Shown here: positions 2,621 to 26,850 of the stretch, in pieces
Numbering within the stretch: position 1 is the stretch's first letter
Layout of the letters: the number at the start of each line of letters is the position of its first letter
Source: Synechococcus sp. CCY 9618
Lineage (GTDB): Bacteria; Cyanobacteriota; Cyanobacteriia; PCC-6307; Cyanobiaceae
Reading direction: 5' to 3'
NCBI RefSeq assembly: GCF_019038415.1
Contig: NZ_JAFKRG010000036.1
Span: 1-35,097, forward strand
Length of the DNA: 35,097 nucleotides
Made by a program: the position numbers and the translations under genes
The notes under the pieces: model-generated
Databases searched by the model: none
What the model was told of the DNA's origin: nothing
What the model saw: only the letters and a program-made list of their open reading frames with translations

Positions 2621-3373
2621 TCAGGGATTGGCTGCCCCAGCACCGACCTTCTCGAGCCGGCAGGAAAGGCTGTCGTCGTCACAGACCGGCGGCAGCGGAC
2701 GAATGGCCACGTCCTCCCAGACGGCGGCAGCTTCGTCGCGGAGCTGGGCCAGGTTCTGCTCGTAGAAGCGACGCAGGTCGGTGAAACGCTTCACGGGCTG
2801 TCCGTAGAAACTGCGGCCGGCGAGGGTGGGGAAGGAGGCCCATTCGGGGGCCAGACGGGCGGCCAGACCTGGGGTCAGCTCGCCACGGTCGGCAAGCTGG
2901 AGCGCTCCGCGACGCTGCACCAGGAACAGGGCGGCCTGATCCTGGGACTCGGGCTGGAAGTCGGCGATGCCGAGGGCCCGGGTGACCATGGTCCAGGTGA
3001 AGGGCATGAACTGGTAGGCACCGGCGGCGGCACTGGCGTAGCGGGCGGTGCGCATCACCCGGTTGGGATGGCGGTCGAGGGAGTCGAAGAGACTGCCGCC
3101 GAACAGGATGCGATACCCCACGTCATGGCCGTTGGCCCAGGTTCCCTCGGCGTAGCGGATGGTGTTGAGCAGGGCCCGCCGCTCCGGAGTGATAGCGAAG
3201 ACACGGGGAGTGGCTGCCGCCGCAGGCAGCACGGCCACCGACCTGGGGCCGTTGACGGACCCCCCGTTCAGGGTCCAGGTGCTGGAGGCCTCAAGGGCCC
3301 TGGCCGGCTCTGCCAGGGAAAGGCTGAGGCCGGTGAAGGCGAGCAGCAGATGGGAGCTCTGAAAAATCCGCAA
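2621..3373 (-). CDS. Secreted lambda-lysozyme-like (GH104) muramidase
   Basis: The protein has a hydrophobic signal-like segment (QSSHLLLAFTGLSLSLAEPARA) followed by a lambda-endolysin-type fold. TIRYAEGT carries the expected catalytic glutamate, and GYRILFGGSLF and ASAAAGAYQFMPFTW match the family's substrate-cleft blocks. GH104 enzymes cleave the MurNAc-GlcNAc bond of peptidoglycan as lytic transglycosylases. A signal peptide suggests export to the periplasm, so a role in wall remodelling is more likely than phage lysis; no holin or other phage gene lies nearby. The frame stays open to a GTG at 3472, but that lies inside a palindrome and adds unstructured sequence. The TTG at 3373 gives the most signal-like N-terminus; a GTG at 3433 is another option. 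The start is uncertain, the family call is firm. Confidence 0.82.
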   Translation of the reverse strand: MRIFQSSHLLLAFTGLSLSLAEPARALEASSTWTLNGGSVNGPRSVAVLPAAAATPRVFAITPERRALLNTIRYAEGTWANGHDVGYRILFGGSLFDSLDRHPNRVMRTARYASAAAGAYQFMPFTWTMVTRALGIADFQPESQDQAALFLVQRRGALQLADRGELTPGLAARLAPEWASFPTLAGRSFYGQPVKRFTDLRRFYEQNLAQLRDEAAAVWEDVAIRPLPPVCDDDSLSCRLEKVGAGAANP

Positions 3374-3672
3374 AAGAGAGGGAGGCGAAGGGCAGATGAG
3401 TGGAGCATTCTGTTCATGGAGAACGGATTGCACCCGGTTGTTGTGCTCATGTCTCCATGTCTTCGGAAGCACGACATCAGGATGTCGTCGTGATCCCGTC
3501 GCAAGGAAAGTGGATTCTTAGCCCTCAAACTTCGCGGTAATTTGCCGACGAACGGCCCGAACCGATTCCCTCTTCGTGACGGTCACACAACTGTCTACCA
3601 GTATCAAGAATGACGCTCAGCGTTCGAGATACAGGGAGGGACTGAATTTTCGCGATCTCGTTGAACAGATGA
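3374..3672. other. Intergenic stretch upstream of the lysozyme gene
   Basis: No convincing gene is seen here. The stretch is AT-richer than its neighbours and contains the palindrome at 3471-3488 and a shorter 5-1-5 palindrome, GTGAC-G-GTCAC, at 3576-3586. On the minus strand it lies between the glycosyltransferase stop and the preferred lysozyme start, so it should hold the lysozyme promoter. No confident -10/-35 pair was found by eye. Confidence 0.5.
3471..3488. promoter_or_regulatory. Perfect 8-2-8 palindrome upstream of the lysozyme gene
   Basis: ACGACATC (3471-3478) and GATGTCGT (3481-3488) are exact reverse complements separated by AG. The site is about 100 bases upstream of the preferred lysozyme start. 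Its symmetry and location fit a dimeric repressor or activator site. No factor can be named. Confidence 0.45.
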
Positions 3673-4773
3673 TCAAATCCTGAAGGTCTGCGCGATAGGG
3701 ACTGCTGATCGGCCCTCCGCCAGCGCCACGATCGCCCGGGCCGCTGTAGCCGCCCCGTCGTCCGCCAGGGGGCCGTCCAGGGGCGGAAGCAGGGGCTGAT
3801 CCAGTTGCCAGTCCCCGCGGCGGAACTGGTCCTGGCTGAGCAGACGGTGCCGGCCATGGAGGCGCAGGTCCTCCTCCAGCACCGGGGCCTCGGCGAATCC
3901 CTCCCGGTGCACCAGATGAATACCCACTCCCTGGCTGAAGGCCTCACAGAAGCTGCTGTAGCCCGGTTTGGTGATCAGTCGCCCCGTCAGGGGCATCAGA
4001 TCAAGCGGACGTACCCCCTCCGGCAGGCGACGGCCGTTGGGGACCTCCGCCAGGACGGGATCGGGTCCGATGAACACATGCTGCGGCCAGCGGGCCATCC
4101 AGGCGGGATCGATCGCCATGCCCAGGCCGCCGAAGCTGACCAGCACCACCCGCTCCCGCTCCGCCGGCAGGCCCAGATCCTCCGCCAGCCGGCGGGTCTC
4201 AAGGCGGGGCCGGGAGCAGGTCAGGCCCAGCCGCACCTCAGGCAGCCCCCAGTCCATGGGCAGGGACAGGGGGCAGTGGAGCAGCAGATCGCCCCGGGCA
4301 TAGCGCCGGCGATGCTGCTCCACCCAGGGCCGGAACGCCGGGCCCATGGGTGCGTGGATGGCATCCCAGCCGAAGCTGGCCAGCCACACCAGGGGCGCCC
4401 CCAGACGGCCGGCCAGAAGCGCAGCGGCCGGTGGCACATCCCCCAGCAGCAGCAACGGCTCCTGCTGGGCCGCGAGCCACGCGGCCTCGCCATCGACCCG
4501 CTCCGGCAGCTCGGCCTCGAGGGCTTCGAGTGCCGTCAGGGTGGCCGAGGCATCGGCCCCCAGGGCATCCGCCTGAATCACACCGACGTCCCAGCGGCAG
4601 GGTCGGTGCTCAAAGGGAACCCGGCCGAAGGACAACCGCAGAAACGCTTGCGGCAGTCCGGTGGAGAGCACCAGACGCCAGTCGGGCCGCAGATCCGCCA
4701 GTTCCGTCAGCACCGCTGCCGTTCGGGAGCCGTGGCCGTAGCCATGGCTGCTGATGCAGGCATAGATCAGCAT
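3673..4773 (-). CDS. Glycosyltransferase-like protein, MurG/UGT fold
   Basis: A 366-residue protein beginning MLIYACISSHGYGHGSR. The N-terminal HGYGHGSR loop is characteristic of GT-B glycosyltransferases that bind nucleotide sugar, as in MurG and the N-terminal domain of plant L-arabinokinase. A second-domain motif is also visible: VVLVSFGGLGM opens the C-terminal Rossmann half, and KPGYSSFCEAFSQGVG resembles the donor-binding segment (compare GGxGTxxEA). No signal peptide or membrane span is seen, so it is probably cytosolic. An upstream GTG at 4800 would overlap the phosphoesterase stop; the ATG at 4773 fits the family N-terminus better and leaves 16 bp. It is probably co-transcribed with that phosphoesterase. 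Substrate and product are unknown. Confidence 0.7.
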   Translation of the reverse strand: MLIYACISSHGYGHGSRTAAVLTELADLRPDWRLVLSTGLPQAFLRLSFGRVPFEHRPCRWDVGVIQADALGADASATLTALEALEAELPERVDGEAAWLAAQQEPLLLLGDVPPAAALLAGRLGAPLVWLASFGWDAIHAPMGPAFRPWVEQHRRRYARGDLLLHCPLSLPMDWGLPEVRLGLTCSRPRLETRRLAEDLGLPAERERVVLVSFGGLGMAIDPAWMARWPQHVFIGPDPVLAEVPNGRRLPEGVRPLDLMPLTGRLITKPGYSSFCEAFSQGVGIHLVHREGFAEAPVLEEDLRLHGRHRLLSQDQFRRGDWQLDQPLLPPLDGPLADDGAATAARAIVALAEGRSAVPIAQTFRI

Positions 4774-4789
4774 GCCCGGCGCAGGGCCA

Positions 4790-5671
4790 TCAGCAGGCAC
4801 TCAGCACGCCTGGCGCCGGCTGGACCGCTCGCCACAGGGTCTGCTCGTAATGCAGGGCACCGTCGATCCCGTACCAGCGATGGCTGATGTGTCGCAGCTC
4901 GCCGTCCCGGAAGACCACCCAGCTGAAGTGACGCAGGGCCCGACCCTGCTGGTCCACACCGTGGCGGGGCACGCAGGCCGTGTTGAGGAAGGCCGTGCCG
5001 TGGGTGTCCCTGCGGAAGCTGATCCGCTCCCCCTGATGGTGGCGCAGGACATGGTGCATGTGACCGAACACCACCAGGGGCAGGGGGCGGCGACGGCGGA
5101 TCTGATCGACCGCCAGGGCCAGATCCTGGTCCCCCCAGTCGCAGGCGGGCGTCTTCCAGTCCCTGCCGCAGGGATCATCCAGCTGGCTGCCGAGACCGCT
5201 GGGGCCGGAATGGGCCAGCAGCACCAGGGGGAGGGCCGGATCCGCCGACAGGGCGGCCCGGCTGATCCGCTCGGCGGAGGCGTGGAGGCCCACCGGGCCG
5301 TAGACCGCCCGGACGGCCTTGGAGAGATGAAAACCGCCACCCGCCGTCCCTGGGCGGGCTCCCACCACCGCCAGGCCGGGCGGGCGGAGCTCCCTCAGAC
5401 CCCAGCCGCAGTGGCGATCTCCCAGCAGTTCCAGCTGCCGACGCAGGGTGCGGCCGCTGCCGTCCTTGCCCGAATCGTGGTTGCCCAGCACGCAGGCCAT
5501 GGGCAGCTCCAGGCTGGCGAGCAGTTCCGGGATCCGGCTCTTTCCGTCGCTGAGATCGCCCACCAGAAGCAGGGCATCGGGACGGATCCGATCGAGCAGG
5601 TCATGGTCGCTGCGATCCCACTGATCATGCAGATCCCCCGCAATGGCGATGTTCAGCTCAGCCAATAGCAA
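4790..5671 (-). CDS. Calcineurin-like metallophosphoesterase (TIGR04168 type)
   Basis: A 293-residue metallophosphoesterase with the family's metal-binding blocks in order: GDLH (about residues 12-15), GDLSD (38-42), GNHD (63-66), LLAHSGPSG and GHMHH near residue 205. These residues would hold a two-metal centre. The overall pattern resembles the cyanobacterial/plant subfamily TIGR04168, whose substrate is not established to my knowledge. The start is TTG at 5671, with an AGGA about seven bases upstream; a second TTG at 5665 is possible. The gene is divergent from nadA (32 bp apart) and lies upstream of the glycosyltransferase on the same strand. It is not the ligase-associated endonuclease PdeM, despite lying near the repair genes. 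Confidence 0.82.
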   Translation of the reverse strand: MLLAELNIAIAGDLHDQWDRSDHDLLDRIRPDALLLVGDLSDGKSRIPELLASLELPMACVLGNHDSGKDGSGRTLRRQLELLGDRHCGWGLRELRPPGLAVVGARPGTAGGGFHLSKAVRAVYGPVGLHASAERISRAALSADPALPLVLLAHSGPSGLGSQLDDPCGRDWKTPACDWGDQDLALAVDQIRRRRPLPLVVFGHMHHVLRHHQGERISFRRDTHGTAFLNTACVPRHGVDQQGRALRHFSWVVFRDGELRHISHRWYGIDGALHYEQTLWRAVQPAPGVLSAC

Positions 5672-9441: not shown

Positions 9442-10025
9442 ACCGAGTGGCCATCCCCCGGCAGCAGCACCGGGGCTGCGGGGTCGATGCGGCGCCCCAG
9501 GCTCAGCTCCGGCGGGCCCGGATCCACCCCGTCGTCCCAGCGTTCCAGGGAGAGCATCCGGCCGTCCTCCCCTTCGTAGTCGCCGTAGCGGCAACCCTGC
9601 AGCCGGCGGTTCATCACCCGGGCGGCGGTGGTGACCGAGGCCCGCCCCGTTTCCTTCAGGGTGTAGAGCTGGCCGCGGCAGCGCAGGCGGGGGGGAAAAT
9701 CGCCCGTCAGTCCCTGCAGCTCTCCCGCCGGCACGTCCTCCAGCCAGCCCACCTCCAGCCAGTCGTCCTCGCAGACACTCAGCCAGCGGCCGTCGTCGCC
9801 GTCCCGCAGCAGATACTCCAGCCACTGGAAGCCGGCGTCGTCGTAGAGGAGCCGGTCCTCCACCACCCAGTCGCGACCCTCGTACTGGACGATGTCACCG
9901 GTGGTCAGGGTGAAGAGGGTGCGGGCCTGGAGCTTCGGTGCGGTCCGCCGCAGCCGCTGCCGCCTCATCAGCAGAAGGGCCACGGCCACCAGCAGCAGCA
10001 GGGGCAGGATGAACCAGACAGCCAT
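9432..10025 (-). CDS. Membrane-anchored DUF4178 protein
   Basis: A 197-residue protein with one N-terminal membrane helix (about residues 3-22, ending in RRQRLRR) and a cytosolic beta-rich domain. The segment TTGDIVQYEGRDWVVED followed by WLEYLL and WLSVCEDDWLEVGWLE is the DUF4178 pattern; a second similar half begins at RCRGQLYTLKETG. The biochemical function is unknown. DUF4178 genes often lie beside spermidine-synthase-like and DUF350 genes, as here. The ATG at 10025 is preferred over an upstream TTG at 10049. It is the last gene of a minus-strand cassette, 76 bp after the spermidine-synthase-like gene, and ends inside the convergent ligase gene. Confidence 0.78.
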   Translation of the reverse strand: MAVWFILPLLLLVAVALLLMRRQRLRRTAPKLQARTLFTLTTGDIVQYEGRDWVVEDRLLYDDAGFQWLEYLLRDGDDGRWLSVCEDDWLEVGWLEDVPAGELQGLTGDFPPRLRCRGQLYTLKETGRASVTTAARVMNRRLQGCRYGDYEGEDGRMLSLERWDDGVDPGPPELSLGRRIDPAAPVLLPGDGHSVYR

Positions 10026-10101
10026 CGTTCCGATCGGGGTCCGGACCAACCCATCCGGCGCGCTCAGCTTATGGAGGGCTCCCTTCGGGAAGGAGCGCCG
10101 T

Positions 10102-11649
10102 TCAGTTGTCGCGCCAGCGGCCCCGGCGCTGGTAGTCGGCCAGCACGGGACGCTGCAGCCGGTTCGGCAACACCCGCTCCCCGGGCGGCAGGGTCAGATC
10201 ACGGCTCAGGGGGAAAAGGCGGTCCAGCTGCCCCTGGTCGATCCAGCGGCCCTGGAAGGGGAGAACGGCGGGGCCTGGCCGGATCCCCCTGCGGTAGGCC
10301 AGAACGAAGCCCCAGGGACCGAAGCTGGGCACATCGACGCCGTAGGGCCGGGTCTGCAGGTCCAGTTCCGCCAGGGTGGCCTGGATCGAGGCCAGCACCC
10401 TGGGGCTGAAGAACGGCGTGGAGGCCTGGGTGACGAAAATCCCGTCGGGGGCCAGCCGCCGCAGCAGACGGCCATAGAAGGTGACGCTGTAGAGCCGGGC
10501 CAGGGGAGCCGTGGCCGGGTCGGGGAAGTCGGCGATGATCACGTCATAGGTGCCCCGCAGCTGCCGCACCTGCTCGAAGGCATCGCCGACCAGCAGCCGC
10601 ACCCGCCGGTCCTCCAGGCTGGCGCCGTTGAGGCGGCGCAGAAACGGTTGCTCCCGGGCCAGCCGCAGCATGACCGGATCCAGCTCCACCACGTCCACCT
10701 GCCCCACGCCTGGCCAGCGCAGCACCTCCCGCAGCGCCAGCCCATCCCCCGCCCCCAGCAGCAGCACCCTGGCGGGATGGCCCTGAATGGCCATCGCCGG
10801 ATGCACCAGGGCTTCGTGGTAGCGGTATTCATCGAGGCTCGAGAACTGCAGCTGGCCGTCGAGGAACAGGCGCAGGTCGTCGCGGCGACGGGTGAGCACG
10901 ATGCGCTGGTGGCGGCTCTGGATGCGGCTCACCACAGGATCGTCGTAGAGGCCGTCCTCGATCCGGTCACCGAGGGGCACCAGCCCCCAGCCCGCCACCG
11001 CGATCACCGGCAGGGCCGCGGCCACCGACCAGCGCCAGCGGCGGCCGACCGGGAACACCGCAGCGATGGCCGCACTGCTGGCCAGGGGCACCAGGGCCAG
11101 CAGGCCTGCCGTGGGCAGCAGCCCGAGCCAGGGAAGCAGCACCAGGGGAAAGAGCAGGGACCCGACCAGGGCTCCCAGGTAGTCGAGGGCCAGCACCCGG
11201 GCCAGGGCGACGCGAAGCTGCTGGCGGCTCTCGAGCAGGCGAGTCAGCAGCGGCACCTCCATGCCGCCGAGCGCCCCCACCAGCACCGTGAACACCACCA
11301 GGCCGAGCCACACCGGCCCCCCCTGGCGGAAGAGGGCGAACAGGGCCAGGGGGGCCAGCAGGCAGAGGGGCGCCAGGGCGAGCTCCACCGCCAGGAACAG
11401 TCGCAGCAGGACCAGGCCCGGGTCGTCACCGCCGGCGAGGAACTGGCTCACCCAGGCTCCCAGGCCCATGGCCGCCAGGAAGGTGCCCACCACCACGCCG
11501 GTGGCCAGGGCATGGTCACCGAGGAGGTAGCTGGCCTGGGTGGCCAGCATCAGCTCCAGCACGAGGCTGACGGCGGAGGAGAGGGCCGCCGCCGCCAGCA
11601 GCACCCGCACCTGCAGGCCCGTCAGGGGAGCAAGGGCGGTCCGCGTCAC
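10102..11649 (-). CDS. Membrane-fused spermidine-synthase-like aminopropyltransferase
   Basis: A 515-residue two-part protein. The first ~210 residues hold about seven hydrophobic helices, the transporter-like membrane domain seen in long bacterial SpeE-like proteins. The rest is a Rossmann-fold domain: DEYRYHEALVHPAM, then GAGDG (about residue 297), VELDP (about 320) and ADFPDP (about 370), matching the decarboxylated-SAM and polyamine binding blocks of aminopropyltransferases. The start is the GTG at 11649, which overlaps the stop of the small upstream gene as GTGA; the frame is open further upstream but would overlap that gene wholly. The expected reaction is transfer of an aminopropyl group to a polyamine or similar amine at the membrane. 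The acceptor is unknown, and true spermidine synthesis is not proven. Confidence 0.85.
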   Translation of the reverse strand: MTRTALAPLTGLQVRVLLAAAALSSAVSLVLELMLATQASYLLGDHALATGVVVGTFLAAMGLGAWVSQFLAGGDDPGLVLLRLFLAVELALAPLCLLAPLALFALFRQGGPVWLGLVVFTVLVGALGGMEVPLLTRLLESRQQLRVALARVLALDYLGALVGSLLFPLVLLPWLGLLPTAGLLALVPLASSAAIAAVFPVGRRWRWSVAAALPVIAVAGWGLVPLGDRIEDGLYDDPVVSRIQSRHQRIVLTRRRDDLRLFLDGQLQFSSLDEYRYHEALVHPAMAIQGHPARVLLLGAGDGLALREVLRWPGVGQVDVVELDPVMLRLAREQPFLRRLNGASLEDRRVRLLVGDAFEQVRQLRGTYDVIIADFPDPATAPLARLYSVTFYGRLLRRLAPDGIFVTQASTPFFSPRVLASIQATLAELDLQTRPYGVDVPSFGPWGFVLAYRRGIRPGPAVLPFQGRWIDQGQLDRLFPLSRDLTLPPGERVLPNRLQRPVLADYQRRGRWRDN

Positions 11650-15781: not shown

Positions 15782-17794
15782 GTGGGGACGTCTAGAAAGC
15801 CGAATCGTTCTCCGCGAGGATGGCTCCTGGAGATGGGCCGGAGCTGCAACCAGCTCAAGGTGCATGCCATTCCTCCGATCGTTCTGGTCGTCGGCCTGCT
15901 GATCACCGCCCTGGTCTGCGGGAACCAGCGGCGCCTCAAAGCCGAGGAGCACCTGCGCACCGAACACGGGATTGCCAGAGACGTGGGTTCGGTTCTGCAC
16001 TCCAGGCTGGTGGCCCAGGGCGCCCTGCTCCTGGCCGTGGTGGGTCTGTTCGACGCCTCGGAGGTGGTCAGTCAGGAGGAATTCCGGCGCTTTGTCGCCT
16101 CCCTGGAGCTCTCCGATGAGGCCTTCAAAGGCATGCAGGGTCTCGGCTTCGTTGCCGTGGAGCCCGGCTCCGACAGGATCGGTCTCGACGCCGGACCCCA
16201 GGCCAGAGACCGCGTCGACTCAGGGATCAGGCCTCCCGACCAGCGTCCGATCACCACCACGGTGCTCTACCTGGAGCCGCTGGTCTGGCGCAACCAGCGC
16301 ACCATCGGGTACGACCTTTTCACCCATCCTGTCCACCGGGAAGCCATGCGCTGGTCGGCCATCACCGGGGAGCCTGCCCTCACGGCAACGGTTTCCCTGG
16401 TTCAGGAGCCCGAGGCCGAGAAGGGAAACACTCTCTACAGGCCGCTTTTCGCCCCAGGCCCCCTGCGCCCGTCTTCCGAGGCGGCACGACTGACACAACT
16501 GCGGGGCTGGGCCTTCCTGGTGCTGCGGATGGAACCGCTGATCCAGGCTGCCCTGGCAGAGCTGGACAATCCTGATCTGCCGGAGGCGGCGGTGCTGATC
16601 TATCAAGGCAGCCAGCCCACCAGGGAAGCGCTGCTGTTCGACAACCAGCAGATTCATGGCACCCCCCTGCTCGGCGATCCTGCCTACAGCCGTGTGCAGA
16701 TCGCCAACCGCCAATGGTTGGTGGGCGTGCAGCTGAGCCGGGGCTATGCCGGCGCCAGCGGCCTGGGTGGCGACCTCACCCTGCTCGGCCTGCTGGGGGG
16801 CAGCATCAGCCTGCTTGCGGCCCTCACCTGCCGCTACCTGGTCAACAACCATGTGGCGATCACCCAGGCCCTGCGGGAATCGGAACAGGCCAACCAGGAA
16901 CGGGCCCTGGCCTCGGCGGTGTTCGAAACCAGTCCCCTGGCGATTCTGGTGACGGATCCCAAGGGACGCATCATCAGCACCAACAACGCCTTCACGGACA
17001 TCAGCGGGCTGTCACGAACCCAGGCCAAGGGGGAGAAGGCCAGCATTCTGCGATCCGGTCGTCACGGGCCCGAGTTCTATCGCCAGATGTGGGAACTGCT
17101 GCTTCGAACTGGAATCTGGAAGGGAGAGATCTGGAACCTTCATCGCGACAACCAGATCCGCCGGGATGAGCTGACCATCATCGCTGTGCTTGATCACCAT
17201 CAGACCGTCACCCAGTACGTGGGCATGCTTCAGGACATCACCGACCGTTACACGGAACAGGAGAAAGTGAAGTTTCAGGCCATGCATGATTACCTCACAG
17301 GACTACCGAATCGTGCCCTGTTAATGGAGCAACTTTCTCACCAACTCGCCCTTGCCAGGAGATATCGATCGAAGGTGGCCTTGATGTTCATCGACCTGGA
17401 TGGATTCAAGCCCGTGAATGATCAGCACGGCCATGGGGTGGGCGACCAGCTGCTGCAACTGGTCGCCCACCGGATGCAGCGGGTGCTGCGCGACAGCGAT
17501 GTGCTCTGCCGACAGGGAGGAGATGAGTACGTGCTGCTGATCCCGGAGGCACCGGCCCTTGAGCAGCTGGTGGACATCGCCCGCAAGCTGCGGGCGGCGG
17601 TGGGCCTTCCCTATCCAGAGCTTCCCGCCGACGTGGTGGTGTCGGTGAGCATCGGCATCGCCTGCTGGCCGGAGCACGGCAGCGATGCTGACAGCCTGCT
17701 GGATGCGGCGGATGCGGCCATGTACCGAGCCAAACAGGGAAGTCCGGAGAGTATCGAGCTGGCGACACTCCTGAACGACGGCAGGAAGGACTGA
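15782..17794 (+). CDS. CHASE-PAS-GGDEF diguanylate cyclase
   Basis: A 670-residue membrane sensor. A first membrane helix (about 29-47) is followed by an extracytoplasmic CHASE domain (about 80-320, with VLYLEPLVWRNQRTIGYDL typical of the family) and a second helix (about 335-360). A PAS domain (about 376-490, starting VFETSPLAILVTDPKGR) and a C-terminal GGDEF domain follow. The active-site loop is GGDEY (579-583), an accepted variant. RDSD (570-573), five residues upstream, fits the RxxD inhibitory site for c-di-GMP feedback. It should make c-di-GMP from two GTP in response to a periplasmic ligand. No EAL domain follows. The start is uncertain: GTG 15782 or ATG 15833. Base composition is somewhat less GC-rich than the helicase gene before it. 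Confidence 0.93.
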   Translation: MGTSRKPNRSPRGWLLEMGRSCNQLKVHAIPPIVLVVGLLITALVCGNQRRLKAEEHLRTEHGIARDVGSVLHSRLVAQGALLLAVVGLFDASEVVSQEEFRRFVASLELSDEAFKGMQGLGFVAVEPGSDRIGLDAGPQARDRVDSGIRPPDQRPITTTVLYLEPLVWRNQRTIGYDLFTHPVHREAMRWSAITGEPALTATVSLVQEPEAEKGNTLYRPLFAPGPLRPSSEAARLTQLRGWAFLVLRMEPLIQAALAELDNPDLPEAAVLIYQGSQPTREALLFDNQQIHGTPLLGDPAYSRVQIANRQWLVGVQLSRGYAGASGLGGDLTLLGLLGGSISLLAALTCRYLVNNHVAITQALRESEQANQERALASAVFETSPLAILVTDPKGRIISTNNAFTDISGLSRTQAKGEKASILRSGRHGPEFYRQMWELLLRTGIWKGEIWNLHRDNQIRRDELTIIAVLDHHQTVTQYVGMLQDITDRYTEQEKVKFQAMHDYLTGLPNRALLMEQLSHQLALARRYRSKVALMFIDLDGFKPVNDQHGHGVGDQLLQLVAHRMQRVLRDSDVLCRQGGDEYVLLIPEAPALEQLVDIARKLRAAVGLPYPELPADVVVSVSIGIACWPEHGSDADSLLDAADAAMYRAKQGSPESIELATLLNDGRKD

Positions 17795-20512: not shown

Positions 20513-21700
20513 ATGGACCCTGTGATCACCCCCAGCAAGAATCATCCAAGGCCAAGACGTTCAACCATTTCCATTCAGAAGGTTTTCACCCTAATTGCTG
20601 TGATCAACGGACTGGTTCTGGCCTATCTGGTCATTGCCGCCATCCAGCTTCTCAGGGTTCCGGGAACGAGATCGACAGAGGTTTACGTCTCACTGATTCT
20701 CACGATCCTGCTTGTTCTGCTGGCCGTCATCTCCTACCAGATTATTGCCAGACGCATCATTCACCCAGTGGCGCGGTTGGTGAAGGAAGCCAGTTTCATC
20801 GAAAGCGACGACATGAGCAGCTTGCTCACGGTTCGCAGCGATGATGAAATATCAAGCCTCGCCCTGGCCTTCAATGCGGTGCTTGGGAAGATGAGACAGG
20901 CCATCGTGGCTGGCGATGTCGCCAACCAGAAGTTGGTGCATGCCAACGACCAGATTGCCTCCTCAATCAATTACGCGGGTCTGCTGCAGCGGTCGATCCT
21001 CCCGGATCGCCAGTTGCAGGAAACATTCGGCGACGATCATTTCATCCTGTGGCTGCCACGGGACACCGTTGGCGGCGACTACTACATCTTCCACTCAGAA
21101 GGTGGGAACTGCGTTGCCGGCGTTGCCGACTGTGCCGGTCATGGGGTGTCCGGAGCGATGATGACGATGCTGGCGAGGGCTGGGATTGATCGATCCATCC
21201 TGGAAGTGGGCATTTCCTCACCCGCCGCCATTCTGAGCTGCACCGATGCAGCCATGCGCAATCTTCTGCACGGTCCCCGACTGAGCAAGTCGATCGCCAC
21301 GAGCATGGATATCGGACTTGTCCGCCTTGACTTTCAAGCAAGGAAGCTAAGATTTGCAGGGGCAAAGATCAGTCTATACTGGACCGACGGTCAGAACATG
21401 CACATGGTCAGGGGCGACAATCGGGCCATCTGCGATCACCGCATCGGTGCCTACACCGATCACGATCTTGAACTGCTTCCTGATTGCACGTACTATCTCA
21501 CCACCGACGGTCTGCTGGACCAGTCAGGCGGCGACGAAGGTTTCTCCCTGGGCACAGAAAAGTTCAGCCAGTGGCTGGTCCGCCTGGCCCGTAAACCACT
21601 GGCCGAGCAGCGCCGGGCCTTGGCTGAGGCCCTCGCCGAGTACCGGGGCAACCATCCCCAGCGCGACGACATCACGATTCTCTCCTTCCGTTTCAGCTGA
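20513..21700 (+). CDS. siaA: SiaA-type PP2C phosphatase with HAMP domain
   Basis: A 395-residue protein from ATG 20513: two membrane helices (about 24-47 and 56-79), a HAMP-like linker (about 80-130) and a PP2C/SpoIIE phosphatase domain. GGDYY (187-191) and ADCAGHGVSGAMM (from 205) supply the metal-binding aspartates, with TDGLLDQ and RDDITIL near the C-terminus. In Pseudomonas, SiaA dephosphorylates SiaC, which then switches on the cyclase SiaD. Only about eight residues separate the two helices, so the large periplasmic sensor of Pseudomonas SiaA (which is roughly 260 residues longer) is absent. Input may come through the membrane or a partner. It is the first gene of siaABCD, in AT-richer DNA than its flanks. 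Confidence 0.88.
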   Translation: MDPVITPSKNHPRPRRSTISIQKVFTLIAVINGLVLAYLVIAAIQLLRVPGTRSTEVYVSLILTILLVLLAVISYQIIARRIIHPVARLVKEASFIESDDMSSLLTVRSDDEISSLALAFNAVLGKMRQAIVAGDVANQKLVHANDQIASSINYAGLLQRSILPDRQLQETFGDDHFILWLPRDTVGGDYYIFHSEGGNCVAGVADCAGHGVSGAMMTMLARAGIDRSILEVGISSPAAILSCTDAAMRNLLHGPRLSKSIATSMDIGLVRLDFQARKLRFAGAKISLYWTDGQNMHMVRGDNRAICDHRIGAYTDHDLELLPDCTYYLTTDGLLDQSGGDEGFSLGTEKFSQWLVRLARKPLAEQRRALAEALAEYRGNHPQRDDITILSFRFS

Positions 21701-21794
21701 ACCCTGTTCGCCCCCCCATGCCTGCAGCCATGTCCCACCACGACCAGACCCGGCGAGGGATGCCCCTTGCCGACGCGACTGAGGGAGTGCTCCG

Positions 21795-22343
21795 ATGACC
21801 ATCACCACCACGAGCCTGATGTCACTGAAGGATTTCTTCAGTGATCAGAAAATCCTGATCTGCTTCAACGGGCCGATCTCCAGAAATCTGATCGGGGAGA
21901 TCGGCTCTGCCCTGAAAGAACACATTGAATCCAATCACGCTCCGGATCTGGAAGTGATGGATGTGTTCAGCGTGTATATTGAGATGAGTCAGAATATCAG
22001 GAACTACGCCCACAGTCAGGGCTACAGCGATGCTGAATCCTCAGCCACGGTCGTCATTGCGGCTGCCGAGGCTGGCCATTACGCGGTCTGCGCCGGTAAT
22101 CTCGTTGACATGGAGGATGGGAAAGCCTTGGTGGAACGCATCCGTACCCTTGCCGACTGCGACAAGATCCAGCTGAAGGCCCTGTACAAGGAACAGTTGC
22201 GCCAACCACGCTCCGAACTCAAGGGCCGCGGCGCCGGCCTCGGCCTGATCGAGATCGCCCGACGCTCCAGCCAACCCATGGAAGCCTCCCTTGACCCCCT
22301 TGAGACCGGTCGTGCCTTCTTCAGCCTTCGCGCCATCATCTGA
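21795..22343 (+). CDS. siaB: SiaB-type protein kinase (DUF6272)
   Basis: A 182-residue soluble protein with a GHKL-type ATP-binding fold. EMSQNIRNYA (63-72) is the N-box that holds Mg-ATP, and GRGAGLGLIEIARRSS (from 144) is the glycine-rich G2-like box. This matches the SiaB family, which phosphorylates the threonine of SiaC and opposes SiaA. GAGGGAG at 21781-21787 gives a good ribosome site seven bases before the ATG. Its order between SiaA and SiaC is the canonical one. It sits 94 bp after siaA and 3 bp before siaC. Low GC is evident throughout. The alternative, an anti-sigma-factor RsbW-type kinase, is disfavoured by the neighbours. Confidence 0.9.
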   Translation: MTITTTSLMSLKDFFSDQKILICFNGPISRNLIGEIGSALKEHIESNHAPDLEVMDVFSVYIEMSQNIRNYAHSQGYSDAESSATVVIAAAEAGHYAVCAGNLVDMEDGKALVERIRTLADCDKIQLKALYKEQLRQPRSELKGRGAGLGLIEIARRSSQPMEASLDPLETGRAFFSLRAII

Positions 22344-22346
22344 CTC

Positions 22347-22742
22347 ATGAGCACCAGCGAAGCCCTCAACCTCTCCATCCCCGGCTCCCAGTCCAGCCCC
22401 TCGATCCGTGCGGACTGGAATGCTGGCGTGGTCGTGATGAGCGGCGAGTCCTATCCAGAGAATTCCTTCGAGCTTTATGATCAGCTGATTCAATGGATCA
22501 ATTCATATCTTTCGACTGTCGACCATTCGCTCACCCTCGAATTGCATCTGAACTATCTGAATACCAGCAGCATTCGTTTTATGATTGACATCTTCGACCT
22601 ACTCCAAGCCGCCTCTGCCAAAGACAAGGAAGTTCTTGTTCAGTGGATGTATGACGACAGGAATCCACGCTCTGCAGAATTGGGAGCCGAATTCAAGGAG
22701 GATTACACCTTTCCGTTCCTGATTCTTTCGATCAACGCCTGA
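22347..22742 (+). CDS. siaC: SiaC phospho-switch protein (DUF1987)
   Basis: A 131-residue soluble protein of the DUF1987/SiaC family. GVVVMSGESYPENS and LELHLNYLNTSSIRFMIDIF are the characteristic blocks; Thr73 in NTSS corresponds to the phosphorylated threonine (Thr68) of Pseudomonas SiaC. In the known system, unphosphorylated SiaC binds and activates the cyclase SiaD; phosphorylation by SiaB blocks this and SiaA restores it. The fold resembles anti-sigma-factor antagonists. It lies 3 bp after siaB and 2 bp before siaD, implying one transcript and matched amounts. Base use is AT-rich: the 60 bases at 22501-22560 are about 43% G+C by my count. Confidence 0.92.
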   Translation: MSTSEALNLSIPGSQSSPSIRADWNAGVVVMSGESYPENSFELYDQLIQWINSYLSTVDHSLTLELHLNYLNTSSIRFMIDIFDLLQAASAKDKEVLVQWMYDDRNPRSAELGAEFKEDYTFPFLILSINA

Positions 22743-22744
22743 TC

Positions 22745-23599
22745 ATGGCTTCCTCCTCTTCAAATTCTGACGATCAGTTGGAGCAGGAGGTGATGTCCTA
22801 TCTTGCCAACGAGCAGTATTTTGATGACCCATCCAGAGATCTTCTGGCAAGGCTCTGGCAGCGTATCGAGGAGCAGATCGGTCGACTGGAGCGAGTTGCT
22901 GATATCTCTGACCTCTATCAGAATCATGTTCTTGAAAGCACCCGTAGTCTCTCTGATCGCTATGAGAGGCAGCTGCGTCTTCTCGATCGAGTGGTTCGCA
23001 TCTCCGATCTCTACCAAGCCTCTCTGAAAGATCTGAATCTCTCCCTTTTTGAAGCCTCTACCCATGACGCCCTGACAGGAATCGCCAACCGTCGCTTCAT
23101 GGCTGAACGCTGTCTCCAGGAAGATCAGCGGGCCAGCCGGCACGGGACGACATACTCAATGATCGTTCTAGATGTTGATCATTTCAAACTGATCAACGAC
23201 GAGCACGGTCATGCCACCGGCGATCTGATGCTGATTGATTTCGTCAAGGCTCTCACCAAGAGCCTGCGCCACTACGATATCTGCGCGCGCTGGGGGGGAG
23301 AGGAATTTCTGGCCCTGCTGATTGATTCCGACCTTTCCACAGCCGAAATCGTCGCGAAGCGCATGCTCACCAACATTCGCAGCATGCGGGTTTCGATCGA
23401 CGACATAGAGTTGGGCCTCACCGCCAGCATCGGTCTCACCCAGCACAAATCAGACGAAAATTACGACGCCACGTTCAGGCGTGCGGACAAGGCCCTGCTC
23501 ACAGCCAAGAACAGTGGCCGCGACCGTCTTGTGGTGATTGATCCCTCAGATCCGATGGGCCATCGCGAAATCCAAGACCTGGTATCTTCCGGCGAGTAG
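22745..23599 (+). CDS. siaD: SiaD-type GGDEF diguanylate cyclase
   Basis: A 284-residue soluble diguanylate cyclase. The first ~105 residues are helical and probably coiled-coil. They contain a 32-residue repeat: RVADISDLYQ (50-59) recurs as RVVRISDLYQ (82-91). The GGDEF domain follows from about 107. It has GGEEF (184-188) as active-site loop and RHYD (175-178) five residues upstream, fitting an intact RxxD feedback site. In Pseudomonas the N-terminal helices bind SiaC, which orders the dimer for c-di-GMP synthesis; the repeated segment here is the likely equivalent. It is the last gene of the module, ending 72 bp before the convergent nrdJ stop. Confidence 0.92.
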   Translation: MASSSSNSDDQLEQEVMSYLANEQYFDDPSRDLLARLWQRIEEQIGRLERVADISDLYQNHVLESTRSLSDRYERQLRLLDRVVRISDLYQASLKDLNLSLFEASTHDALTGIANRRFMAERCLQEDQRASRHGTTYSMIVLDVDHFKLINDEHGHATGDLMLIDFVKALTKSLRHYDICARWGGEEFLALLIDSDLSTAEIVAKRMLTNIRSMRVSIDDIELGLTASIGLTQHKSDENYDATFRRADKALLTAKNSGRDRLVVIDPSDPMGHREIQDLVSSGE

Positions 23600-23671: not shown

Positions 23672-26020
23672 TCAGTTCTGGGGTTTGGCCAGAGGCAGCA
23701 GACATTTGTCAGAATCGCATCCGGCAGGGCCGGCTTCAACCATCTCGCCGCGGTCGTAGGTCTGGAGGGCTTCGAAGAAATCCCCACAGGTGCGACGTTG
23801 CTCCACTTCGGTCACCAGCGCGCGATAGGTGGCCTGGTCGATCGGTTCGAACGGAAGCCTGGGGAAGGTGGCATTGGCATCGAAGCGGGCCAGCAGGGCA
23901 GCGGAGATGTAGCCCTCGCCGTCTTCGATCGCCCGGTGAATGGCCTGGGCCAACGGTTCGATCTCGAGCTCGCGGAACTCCACCGTGGCCGAGGTGTTGT
24001 GGGCGGTGTAATGCCGCTGCACCTGCATGTAGAAGTCGAACTGGGCCAGGGCGGAGAAATTATTGATCTCCACCCGGTCAGCGCCGGGGAGGTTGGCCCA
24101 GCTCACCTCGGTGGGGATCTCCACCAGCCATTCAGTGCAGCGGGGATCGAAGGGATCATTCAGCAGCCGACCCTGCTCGTCCTTGTCGGACTGGGACGGC
24201 ACGATGGCGTAGCCATAGTCCATGCAGGCCAGCGCCACCGGATCGTTCTTGCGGAAGGTGATGCGACGGATGAAACGCTGGGCCTTGGGAGGATGCCAGC
24301 CCGGGCTGGCGCCGGTGAGCAGGCTCTTGGTGCCGGCAGGCTGCACGGTGGTGCAGCGGTTGGGCCGGCGAATGCCGTGGCGATCGCAGTAGTCCCACAC
24401 AGCCGTGTTGACACACTCCTTCCAGCGGGAGAGATAGGCGGCCTCTTCGGCCCGGAAGGCGCGCCCCTCTTCGGAGTCCGGACGGCCGGCCTCCCACCAC
24501 TGCAGCCAGGGGGTGCCGAAGGCATGGACAAAGAAGTCGAACAGGCCGGTGAAGCTCACGCCCACGATCGGATCCCAGGCCCGGCTCTGGCGGTAACGCT
24601 CCACCTCGAAGCGGTGGTTCAGCAGGCAGGCGACGGCCAGGCCACCGGCCCGGAAAGCATCCGCCTGGGCCTGATGGTCGGCCGGATCGATCCGGTTGAG
24701 GTGGATCTCGGCCAGGTTGCAGTGGAAGTCGGCACCGAGGATCTCGCCGCAGGGGTTGAGGCCATAGCGGCCGAGCCGGTGCTCCAGTTCGGCAGCGGTG
24801 ATCTCAGGGTGATGCAGCTGCAGCCAGCGGCCTGCTTCCTCCTTGCCCTGGTCGCAGTAGATGCCGATGAACTCGCTGCGCAGCTCCGGAGTGCTCAGCA
24901 GGTCGGCGTTGGAGCGGGCGATGGCCTCGGGCGCGAACTGAATGGCCCCCTCGCCGGACTGGAACTGCTTGGTGACCGCCTCCAGCACCACCTCGCGGCT
25001 GGGGCGCTGGTGAAAGACCCGCGTGTGGTTGGCCATCCGCAGCGCATCCCGCTCGGGATCGATGCTCCAGTTGCCCTGATCGTCCTGCTGCCAGAGGTTC
25101 TCCTTGGCCCCGGCGGCGGAGTCGTCATCGGCGGCGAACTGGCGCATGCCGGCACTGCGGCGGATGTTGCCCGCCACAATCGTGACAGCCGCCTCATCGA
25201 TCAGCAGGCAGCACTCCACCGAGGTGAGCTGGCGACCGCGAGCCTTGTTGAGGATCTGGGCGACGCGGCCGTAGAGATCCCTCAGCTTGACCGGGTTGGC
25301 CATGCCGCCGAAACCCTTGAGGGTTTCGCCCACCGGCCGCACGTCGGAGAGATCCACCGACACGTGCACCGGGCCATCGAAACGGTCATCGCTGCAGAGG
25401 TTGAGCAGCAGGCGGTAGCTCTCCACCCAGCCGTGGCGCGTGTCGCCGACGCGGACCGTGACCCTGTGGCCATCGATCCGGTGGGTGGTGGCCTGCTGGC
25501 GGGAGCCGATGGGCGTCACCCCGATGTCGGTGACCCCATCGATCACCAGGGTGTTGCGTACCGCCGGCAAGCGGGCGATCAGATGGGGCTCGATGATGGC
25601 GCCGGTACCACAGCCCATCATCGCCAGATCCATCATCAGGGCGAAGGCCTCCCAGTCCACCAGGTTGGTGGAGGTGCAGTTGTAGGCCCCGGAGAAGTTC
25701 TCGGGCTGCTCGATCCATTCGGTGCCGCCGATCCACAGCCAGCGGCCGGAGGGGAGGGCCAGCTGATGGCGCTGCATGCGCCGGATCAGCTCCACCTCGG
25801 CCGGGTCGAGGGAGCCCAGGCGCCGCAGGCCCTCCAGGTTGCGCTCCGCCACCTCGTTCCAGCTCTCCCGGCCGCCGGCGGGCGTCTTGCGGCTGTAGGT
25901 CCGGTAGAAGACCGGATTGGCCGCCGGGGCGGTGATCGGAAAATCGACCCCGGCGGCATCAGCGGCGGTGGGGGGCGTGGCCGGAGCCGGCGAGGCGGGT
26001 CGGGCGGCTGACAGGGTCAC
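23672..26020 (-). CDS. nrdJ: Adenosylcobalamin-dependent class II ribonucleotide reductase
   Basis: A 782-residue monomeric ribonucleoside-triphosphate reductase, which reduces NTPs to dNTPs using adenosylcobalamin to make the thiyl radical. Cys115 in SGAYNCTST is one redox cysteine and NPCGEILG (Cys424) is the radical-site block. The C-terminal CX4C (768 and 773, in CDSDKC) is the shuttle pair that re-reduces the active site. MMGCGTGAIIEPH and VQPAGTKSLLTG are further family blocks. The frame is open far upstream, but the added sequence is low-complexity shadow; the GTG at 26020 gives a family-sized protein. Class II enzymes serve as the main reductase in many picocyanobacteria, which makes growth depend on (pseudo)cobalamin. 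Convergent with siaD. Confidence 0.95.
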   Translation of the reverse strand: MTLSAARPASPAPATPPTAADAAGVDFPITAPAANPVFYRTYSRKTPAGGRESWNEVAERNLEGLRRLGSLDPAEVELIRRMQRHQLALPSGRWLWIGGTEWIEQPENFSGAYNCTSTNLVDWEAFALMMDLAMMGCGTGAIIEPHLIARLPAVRNTLVIDGVTDIGVTPIGSRQQATTHRIDGHRVTVRVGDTRHGWVESYRLLLNLCSDDRFDGPVHVSVDLSDVRPVGETLKGFGGMANPVKLRDLYGRVAQILNKARGRQLTSVECCLLIDEAAVTIVAGNIRRSAGMRQFAADDDSAAGAKENLWQQDDQGNWSIDPERDALRMANHTRVFHQRPSREVVLEAVTKQFQSGEGAIQFAPEAIARSNADLLSTPELRSEFIGIYCDQGKEEAGRWLQLHHPEITAAELEHRLGRYGLNPCGEILGADFHCNLAEIHLNRIDPADHQAQADAFRAGGLAVACLLNHRFEVERYRQSRAWDPIVGVSFTGLFDFFVHAFGTPWLQWWEAGRPDSEEGRAFRAEEAAYLSRWKECVNTAVWDYCDRHGIRRPNRCTTVQPAGTKSLLTGASPGWHPPKAQRFIRRITFRKNDPVALACMDYGYAIVPSQSDKDEQGRLLNDPFDPRCTEWLVEIPTEVSWANLPGADRVEINNFSALAQFDFYMQVQRHYTAHNTSATVEFRELEIEPLAQAIHRAIEDGEGYISAALLARFDANATFPRLPFEPIDQATYRALVTEVEQRRTCGDFFEALQTYDRGEMVEAGPAGCDSDKCLLPLAKPQN

Positions 26021-26169
26021 GGGTGGATAGGCCGAGCGTGGTCGAAACCATAACGCCACTGGTGGGGTCCGCAACGGGGTTCGGGCACCAGCCACGGTGG
26101 ATTGGGCAGAATCGCCGCAGTGGAACGGGAAACCCGGCGCAATCCGGGGAAAGACAACAGGCTGACTGG
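26021..26169. promoter_or_regulatory. Divergent upstream region of nrdJ and a methyltransferase gene
   Basis: 149 bp between two divergent starts, expected to hold both promoters. On the plus strand it contains GGGAAACCCGGCGC followed by AATCCGGGG, which resembles the P5/L5 part of a cobalamin riboswitch, but the rest of that core was not found. No confident promoter box is visible. Confidence 0.4.
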
Positions 26170-26850
26170 ATGGAGCGTCGCTGCGAGCCCGAACTGATGG
26201 AGGACGCCGCCCAGGCGCAGGCCTACGCGGAGGCCGACTTCTCCCGGACCGACCGGCAGGTGATCGCGGCGATCGTGGATCTGCTGGGTCACGAAGCGGC
26301 CGGGAGTGGTGAAGGCCTGCGGTTCGTGGATCTGGGCTGCGGACCCGGCAACATCGCTCTGCTGCTGGCGGGCCGATGGCCCGGGGCCGAGGTGCTCGGG
26401 CTGGATGGCTCCAGCGCCATGCTGGCAATTGCCGAGAAACGACGGCTCGCCGCCCCCCTCACCCTGGCGAGGCTTCGGTTCCGGCAGGTGGTGCTGCCCT
26501 GTGGGTCGCTGCCGGCGGGGGCCTTCACGGTGGTCGTCAGCAACAGCCTGCTGCACCATCTCCATGATCCCCAGGTGCTCTGGGCCGGCCTGCGCCAGCT
26601 GGCAGCCCCGGCGGCCTGGATCTACATCAAGGATCTGCGCCGTCCGGCCAGCCGGGAAGCCCTCGAGGCCCTGGTGGCTCGCCATGCCGCCGGCGCCCCG
26701 CCGGTGCTGCGTCACGATTTCGCCCACTCCCTGGAGGCCGCCTTCTCTGCCGGTGAGGTGGCCGAGCAGCTCAGGACGGCCGGGCTCGACGGACTGCGGC
26801 TGCGGGAGCTGGACGATCGCTATCTGGAGGTGGCCGGCCGGCTGGGCTGA
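26170..26850 (+). CDS. Class I SAM-dependent methyltransferase
   Basis: A 226-residue soluble methyltransferase. DLGCGPGN (54-61) is motif I for SAM binding, EVLGLDGSSAML holds the acidic residue for the SAM ribose, and VVSNSLLHHLHDP is the post-II block common in the Methyltransf_11/25 group. The acceptor substrate is unknown. The ATG at 26170 is used because the 49 residues in the open frame before it are low-quality sequence; AGG eight bases upstream is a weak ribosome site. It is divergent from nrdJ, which may only reflect a shared promoter region. The substrate (small molecule, quinone or protein) cannot be told from the motifs. Confidence 0.82.
   Translation: MERRCEPELMEDAAQAQAYAEADFSRTDRQVIAAIVDLLGHEAAGSGEGLRFVDLGCGPGNIALLLAGRWPGAEVLGLDGSSAMLAIAEKRRLAAPLTLARLRFRQVVLPCGSLPAGAFTVVVSNSLLHHLHDPQVLWAGLRQLAAPAAWIYIKDLRRPASREALEALVARHAAGAPPVLRHDFAHSLEAAFSAGEVAEQLRTAGLDGLRLRELDDRYLEVAGRLG

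Follow-up and report, generated by a model that had tools for sequence, protein, structure and literature searches.

The 35,097-nucleotide stretch analysed here (positions 1 to 35,097 of the forward strand of contig NZ_JAFKRG010000036.1, assembly GCF_019038415.1; hereafter the window) comes from Synechococcus sp. CCY 9618 and carries four adjacent genes, siaA, siaB, siaC and siaD, at positions 20513-23599. An initial annotation of the sequence had named these as genes for a PP2C phosphatase, a SiaB kinase, a SiaC phosphoprotein and a GGEEF cyclase. All four open reading frames lie where it put them, and matches in Pfam, NCBIfam and the PDB agree with the gene types. The genes, and the elements within them that are discussed below, are:

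20513-21700, + strand: siaA, ATG start, 395 amino acids; hairpin, HAMP and PP2C/SpoIIE phosphatase, without an extracytoplasmic sensor domain
20570-20656, + strand: SiaA residues 20-48, first membrane helix (helix limits 21-48 from the model)
21795-22343, + strand: siaB, 182 amino acids; SiaB-family protein kinase (NF038264, PDB 6kko_A)
22347-22742, + strand: siaC, 131 amino acids; DUF1987/SiaC phosphoprotein (NF038265, PDB 6k4f and 6kko)
22745-23599, + strand: siaD, 284 amino acids; stalk helix 29-106, then GGEEF diguanylate cyclase with RxxD I-site (NF038266, PDB 7e6g)
22904-22921, + strand: distal docking motif ISDLYQ of SiaD, residues 54-59; aligned without gaps to the S50/Q54 motif of Pseudomonas aeruginosa
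23000-23017, + strand: proximal docking motif ISDLYQ of SiaD, residues 86-91; 32 residues downstream of the distal motif

The last three genes are tightly packed, with 3 bp between siaB and siaC and 2 bp between siaC and siaD, as had been noted from the sequence; the gap between siaA and siaB is 94 bp. Across eight pairs of genomes carrying the operon, the ratio of nonsynonymous to synonymous substitution rates (dN/dS) is 0.018-0.168 over siaA-siaD, and these low values indicate that the genes are under purifying selection. Together with the E-values given below, they rule out chance or mis-annotated open reading frames. A sequence scan found two promoter-like sites (1.6 expected) and five terminator-like sites (2.1 expected), all of them within coding sequence and hence uninformative.

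Identification of the four proteins

Each protein has a clear Pfam match (SpoIIE in SiaA, E 3.5e-20; DUF6272 in SiaB, 2.1e-38; SiaC, 2.2e-36; GGDEF in SiaD, 9e-40), and the HAMP domain of SiaA also scores above its Pfam cut-off. Profile searches against the Sia families, which the initial annotation had proposed as a check, bore out three of the four assignments. SiaB and SiaC both fall inside their families, passing the NCBIfam equivalog models NF038264 (255.9 bits against a cut-off of 225) and NF038265 (185.4 against 150), while SiaD narrowly passes NF038266 (298.9 against 290). SiaA fails, reaching 415.5 bits on NF038263 against a cut-off of 700.

Among solved structures, the top match of all four proteins is the P. 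aeruginosa Sia counterpart: the phosphatase domain of SiaA matches 6k4e (E 1.5e-88), SiaB matches 6kko_A (2.1e-60), SiaC matches 6k4f and 6kko (4.3e-37 and 4.6e-37) and SiaD matches 7e6g (1e-70), which is the solved SiaC-SiaD complex. Foldseek searches with predicted models gave 6k4e as the best match of SiaA (54% identity) and 7e6g_A as that of SiaD. We take the fold of SiaB to be GHKL-like. By the NCBI models, which name them from sequence, SiaB, SiaC and SiaD are ordinary members of a module that is already known.

Occurrence of the operon

Of the 42 genomes from the window's genus, 19 carry the SiaC family, as do 32 of 400 sampled from its family, where it is spread over 6 of 59 genera. 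Across the phylum, 7 of 386 sampled genomes had a match, five of them from the window's genus with full scores and two weak; every strong cyanobacterial match came from one family. All 32 SiaC-positive genomes of the family (hereafter the carriers) have siaA, siaB, siaC and siaD in that order, which is the Pseudomonas order that had been recognised at the window (siaA is truncated in loci L057 and L060).

We also scanned for named relatives, keeping the best 80 of 384 loci; the search patterns were derived from an alignment dominated by cyanobacterial sequences and are biased towards close copies. These 80 comprise 22 cyanobacterial loci and 58 others, which are Pseudomonadota by their record titles. 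The named cyanobacterial carriers among them are Cyanobium, Synechococcus, Aphanothece, Vulcanococcus and uncultured relatives, in keeping with a picocyanobacterial host.

The weak SiaC-family matches outside the family are at L031 and L033 (genome G504; 24.5 bits, just above the cut-off, and 23.5 bits) and L032 (genome G501; 20.6 bits). They are possibly distant DUF1987 or STAS proteins.

Conservation of functional residues

The accessible part of PMC7647112 gives D457, D474, G477, D600, G601 and D653 as the PP2C active-site residues of P. aeruginosa SiaA. All six have equivalents here (D189, D206, G209, D332, G333 and D385), with identical spacing. In SiaB, E63 of the sequence IEMSQN aligns with the catalytic glutamate of the P. 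aeruginosa protein (E61 in the paper), and GAGLG is found at position 146. SiaC Thr73 lies within LNTSS and aligns with P. aeruginosa T68, in the published peptide LLYLNTSSIK; YLNTSS is invariant in a 12-row alignment. SiaD has its RHYD I-site at position 175, equivalent to R170/D173 of P. aeruginosa, and GGEEF at 184. The NTSS threonine, RHYD and GGEEF had all been picked out in the initial annotation. In the SiaD and SiaB alignments, PDB chain numbering runs one higher than the published numbering.

SiaC docking sites on P. aeruginosa SiaD are placed at S50/Q54 and S82/Q86 in the part of PMC8457831 available to us. The two ISDLYQ motifs of the window's SiaD, at 54 and 86, have the same spacing of 32 as S50 and S82, and the model of the protein shows a single 78-residue stalk helix bearing both of them, followed by the cyclase domain.

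GGEEF and RxxD are present in 32/32 cyanobacterial SiaD, LNTSS in 31/32 cyanobacterial SiaC, and two docking motifs, by a strict pattern, in 25/32 SiaD. The proximal motif is invariant as ISD.YQ in the 28 SiaD sequences that were aligned; the distal motif is degenerate in L052/L077 (with an insertion), L059/L078, L061, L062 and L064. This asymmetry is consistent with the finding in Pseudomonas that mutation of the proximal motif does more harm (L056, considered below, is the reverse case). What these data show is that the components of the switch and their key residues are there, that the genes stay together and that selection maintains them.

SiaA without its sensor domain

The shortfall of SiaA on NF038263 stems from its N-terminus, where about 285 residues, the sensor, are absent: its alignment covers only positions 286-657 of the 658 in the profile. 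The switch had been called complete, a description that these results do not support. A tight two-helix membrane hairpin stands in place of the sensor. By hydropathy there are two membrane segments, 18 residues apart, and the AlphaFold2 model (mean predicted local distance difference test score, pLDDT, 79.9; residues 1-17 below 50) has helices at 21-48 and 54-97 with a 5-residue turn between. HAMP and the PP2C domain, with its metal-binding Asp residues, are both present.

The other cyanobacterial proteins are alike. Thirty carriers have a SiaA whose N-terminus is intact (the truncated siaA of L060 and of L057, which lies at a contig end, were excluded), and their siaA open frames are 392-483 codons long, whereas the frames reach at least 661 codons in 56/56 Pseudomonadota loci having siaA, the other two of the 58 loci lying at contig ends; these lengths run from stop to stop, with start codons not fixed. 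A hydropathy loop of 12-23 residues was found in 26 of the 32 cyanobacterial SiaA, the other six being the two truncated proteins, L064 with a single segment, and three with both segments placed in the first helix. On NF038263, four further cyanobacterial SiaA score 408.9-440.1 bits and one Pseudomonas SiaA 998.7 bits. This Pseudomonas SiaA also has a dCache_1 match at residues 55-298, which at 30.5 bits (E 3.3e-7) is below the Pfam cut-off of 45.

We searched 40 genomes with a 71-residue SiaA segment (E<=0.1) for a donor of the hairpin; the only matches were the sia locus itself (14 genomes) and a remnant in genome G001 described below, and the hairpin is therefore not seen to be borrowed from another protein. 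The switch type is known, and sensor-less SiaA is a new variant of it. Among the papers listed in searches of an open-access library, judged by title and the start of the abstract, none deals with siaABCD of cyanobacteria or with a SiaA that lacks its sensor, in line with the earlier impression that the system is undescribed in picocyanobacteria.

All 30 intact cyanobacterial proteins have the same residue at eight hairpin positions (I21, Q22, F25, N32, L36 and L39 in helix 1; L67 and S74 in helix 2), and loop residues 48-57 are unconserved. Cyanobacterial SiaA may, though this is less likely than not, be an intramembrane sensor of membrane state (temperature, fluidity or a light-driven change), acting via Q22, N32 and S74. 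It is also possible, if short of probable, that the hairpin has no signal input at all, in which case SiaA would be a constitutive phosphatase and the switch would be set by SiaB, the ATP level or expression. The absence of a sensor domain from all 30 intact proteins (one of them modelled) and the short, unconserved inter-helix turn are what a constitutive phosphatase would lead one to expect; retention of HAMP above its Pfam cut-off, purifying selection on siaA, and the identity of Q22, N32 and S74 in 30/30 rows, beyond the needs of an inert anchor, are not. The three fixed polar positions and the unconserved loop are consistent with an in-membrane sensor, although a phosphatase free of regulation would fit them almost equally well.

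A December 2025 paper in the Journal of Biological Chemistry (PMC12834913) bears on this question. Its accessible part indicates membrane perturbation as the cue for SiaA, names three polar residues at the first membrane helix (R8, K10 and S11) as a candidate sensor, and describes a chimera, with a substitute for residues 1-336 of SiaA, that cannot sustain room-temperature biofilm. A clade that lacks the sensor and keeps the helices, HAMP and phosphatase is a natural deletion experiment on how SiaA senses. If cyanobacterial SiaA does sense within the membrane, it would be a stripped-down form of the membrane-perturbation sensing reported for the P. aeruginosa protein, and would let a planktonic phototroph convert membrane stress into cyclic di-GMP (c-di-GMP) and aggregation.

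Genomic neighbourhood and history

Downstream, siaD meets a convergent gene:

23672-26428, - strand: nrdJ-like B12-dependent ribonucleotide reductase, with the Pfam RNR-II insertion domain; the true start is probably inside this frame

This gene is a conserved genomic neighbour outside the switch. Convergent nrdJ adjoins siaD in 28/32 carriers, including the window, and in 5/6 carrier genera (the exceptions are L036, L061, L063 and L057, the last at a contig end). A match to nrdJ was found in 28 of the 30 non-carriers searched; G012 and G041 have none, and the lack of sia in these two may be an assembly gap. We examined the nrdJ regions of 20 of the 28. At L185 (G001:C37, ~9480-10240), whose nrdJ is 92% identical, there is a remnant in which SiaA residues 35-56 lead straight into SiaD at its residue 49; the frame changes, and GGEEF has become GWEEF. 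At L189, L194 and L195, nrdJ is directly followed by exchanger and pentapeptide genes, the ones flanking siaA in the window, and this arrangement fits either clean loss or an operon that was never present. In the remaining 16 of the 20 regions, no sia gene was matched and the exchanger is not beside nrdJ.

The shared nrdJ neighbour and the deletion remnant in a near relative indicate that the operon is old in the family, with one loss at the least. A tree of the four joined proteins (64 rows; 35 of the 58 non-cyanobacterial loci included; made by a quick method and midpoint-rooted for drawing only) splits the 29 cyanobacterial rows from the 35 others by one branch, with a Shimodaira-Hasegawa-like approximate likelihood ratio test (SH-aLRT) support of 100. 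Sia protein distances follow those of nrdJ (rho 0.79 over 26 taxa, pairs not independent); the deep branches of the 26-taxon sia tree are weakly supported, and the sia and nrdJ trees disagree there. We read this as one old gain in the family, followed by descent in which the operon was lost at least once, and probably several times; transfers between relatives are possible. The narrow distribution within cyanobacteria suggests that the gain came from outside the phylum, and the 64-row tree shows no donor.

Base composition could be taken to tell another story, of an operon recently acquired by this strain from a foreign source and without a settled role. The operon has a GC content of 0.557 against 0.670 in its flanks (11 points lower), and it lies below its flanks in 32/32 cyanobacterial carriers, by 10 points on average, unlike 55 Pseudomonadota loci in which the mean deficit is only 0.7 points; the presence of the operon is also patchy. 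We nevertheless regard recent acquisition as very unlikely. The fully supported single cyanobacterial clade, the nrdJ neighbour in most carrier genera, the congruence of Sia and nrdJ distances, and the deletion remnant that a relative has at this position largely refute a recent foreign island. If the operon is as old as its synteny says, its base composition has not yet adjusted.

Cyclic di-GMP proteins and a candidate output

The window's genome has 13 GGDEF, 10 EAL and 7 PilZ matches, indicating that c-di-GMP can be made, removed and read. ComFB as a c-di-GMP reader was found in 0/42 genomes of the genus. Within the genus, carriers (19 genomes) are richer in these domains than non-carriers (23 genomes), with medians of 17 vs 5 for GGDEF, 6 vs 1 for PilZ and 9 vs 3 for EAL (Mann-Whitney p of 1e-5, 3e-6 and 3e-5, respectively, uncorrected for kinship and incomplete genomes). 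One PilZ protein of the window's genome is a glycosyltransferase with a cellulose-synthase match, next to an HlyD-type gene:

2963-5158 and 5158-6474 of L204 (G000:C9), - strand: PilZ cellulose-synthase-like glycosyltransferase and HlyD-type gene

Relatives of this glycosyltransferase (E 1e-100) occur in 14/19 carriers and 4/23 non-carriers of the genus (Fisher p 4e-4, with the same caveats of kinship and incomplete genomes). It is a candidate output of the switch, and nothing beyond that.

The window holds a second diguanylate cyclase gene, of CHASE-PAS-GGDEF type (15782-17794, + strand), 2.7 kb upstream of siaA and beside a tRNA-Ser gene. In the 31 carrier stretches compared, this frame has no match over half its length.

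Proposed mechanism

On the strength of the sequence comparisons, we consider it very probable that the operon encodes a SiaABCD partner switch, in which phosphorylation of SiaC controls the diguanylate cyclase and sets the c-di-GMP level. The individual steps have been shown in P. aeruginosa by others, and we infer them here from the conserved residues. SiaB would phosphorylate SiaC at Thr73, leaving it unable to bind SiaD, and the PP2C domain of SiaA would strip the phosphate off again. Free SiaC would then dock at both ISDLYQ motifs of the SiaD stalk and keep SiaD an active dimer, so that c-di-GMP rises until its binding at the RHYD I-site shuts the cyclase down. Since SiaA has no extracytoplasmic sensor, the trigger would act via the membrane helices, HAMP or a partner; otherwise the phosphatase would be constitutive and the balance set by ATP or SiaB. 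The output is probably one or more of the PilZ proteins, for example the cellulose-synthase-like glycosyltransferase, leading to aggregation or matrix production. Control of aggregation or biofilm, as proposed in the initial annotation, would thus be by analogy with Pseudomonas.

Some observations weigh against this reading. Besides the shortfall of SiaA on its equivalog model, only a single docking motif is found in 7/32 carriers by the strict pattern and in 6/32 by a looser one, and L056, outside the 28 aligned sequences, keeps the distal motif and loses the proximal. SiaB of L054 has K at the position of the catalytic E, and those of L057 and L061 retain the E with altered residues after it. 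In L060/L094 (Cyanobium sp. E1_MAG_00006), SiaC reads LNASS and is shortened by a stop, and SiaA is without its N-terminal part; decay of this copy or an error of assembly is the probable cause. At E 1e-100, the PilZ synthase on which the link to aggregation depends is absent from 5/19 carriers of the genus.

SiaABC might also act mainly on a target besides SiaD, such as a different one among the genome's 13 GGDEF matches, with SiaD secondary; partner switches elsewhere do control different cyclases, according to the accessible part of PMC8457831. Yet SiaD is adjacent in all 32 carriers and by the strict pattern never lacks both docking motifs, and we judge a different main target very unlikely, the search for docking motifs having covered SiaD alone among the GGDEF proteins. 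The operon places a named c-di-GMP switch in picocyanobacteria and offers a small system suited to in vitro rebuilding.

Comparison with known systems

The P. aeruginosa siaABCD operon, which we take to be PA0172-PA0169, is the closest point of reference. The cyanobacterial operon shares its gene order, its SiaB, SiaC and SiaD families above the NCBIfam equivalog cut-offs, and its PP2C residues, SiaB Glu, SiaC Thr, SiaD A-site and I-site, and both docking motifs at the same spacing. It differs in SiaA, which has 663 residues in P. aeruginosa and 395 here, with no sensor between the two membrane helices and with conserved residues of its own in the first of them. In other Pseudomonadota (Halomonas, Stutzerimonas, Bordetella, Telmatospirillum etc.), the ABCD order is found in 55/58 loci examined, the three exceptions being two contig ends without siaA and one displaced siaA; these operons lie on the opposite side of the deepest well-supported tree branch from the cyanobacterial copies.

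Cyanobacteria have other partner switches, such as the IcfG cluster and PmgA/Ssr1600 of Synechocystis, whose kinase and phosphoprotein families presumably differ from the Sia families. They share with Sia the logic of a kinase and a phosphoprotein, but the accessible part of PMC11863333 mentions no diguanylate cyclase as their partner. HsbD/HsbA of P. aeruginosa and BgrR/BgrV of Sinorhizobium likewise place a cyclase under a partner switch (PMC8457831, in the part available), using STAS-domain partners where the operon described here uses SiaC/DUF1987.

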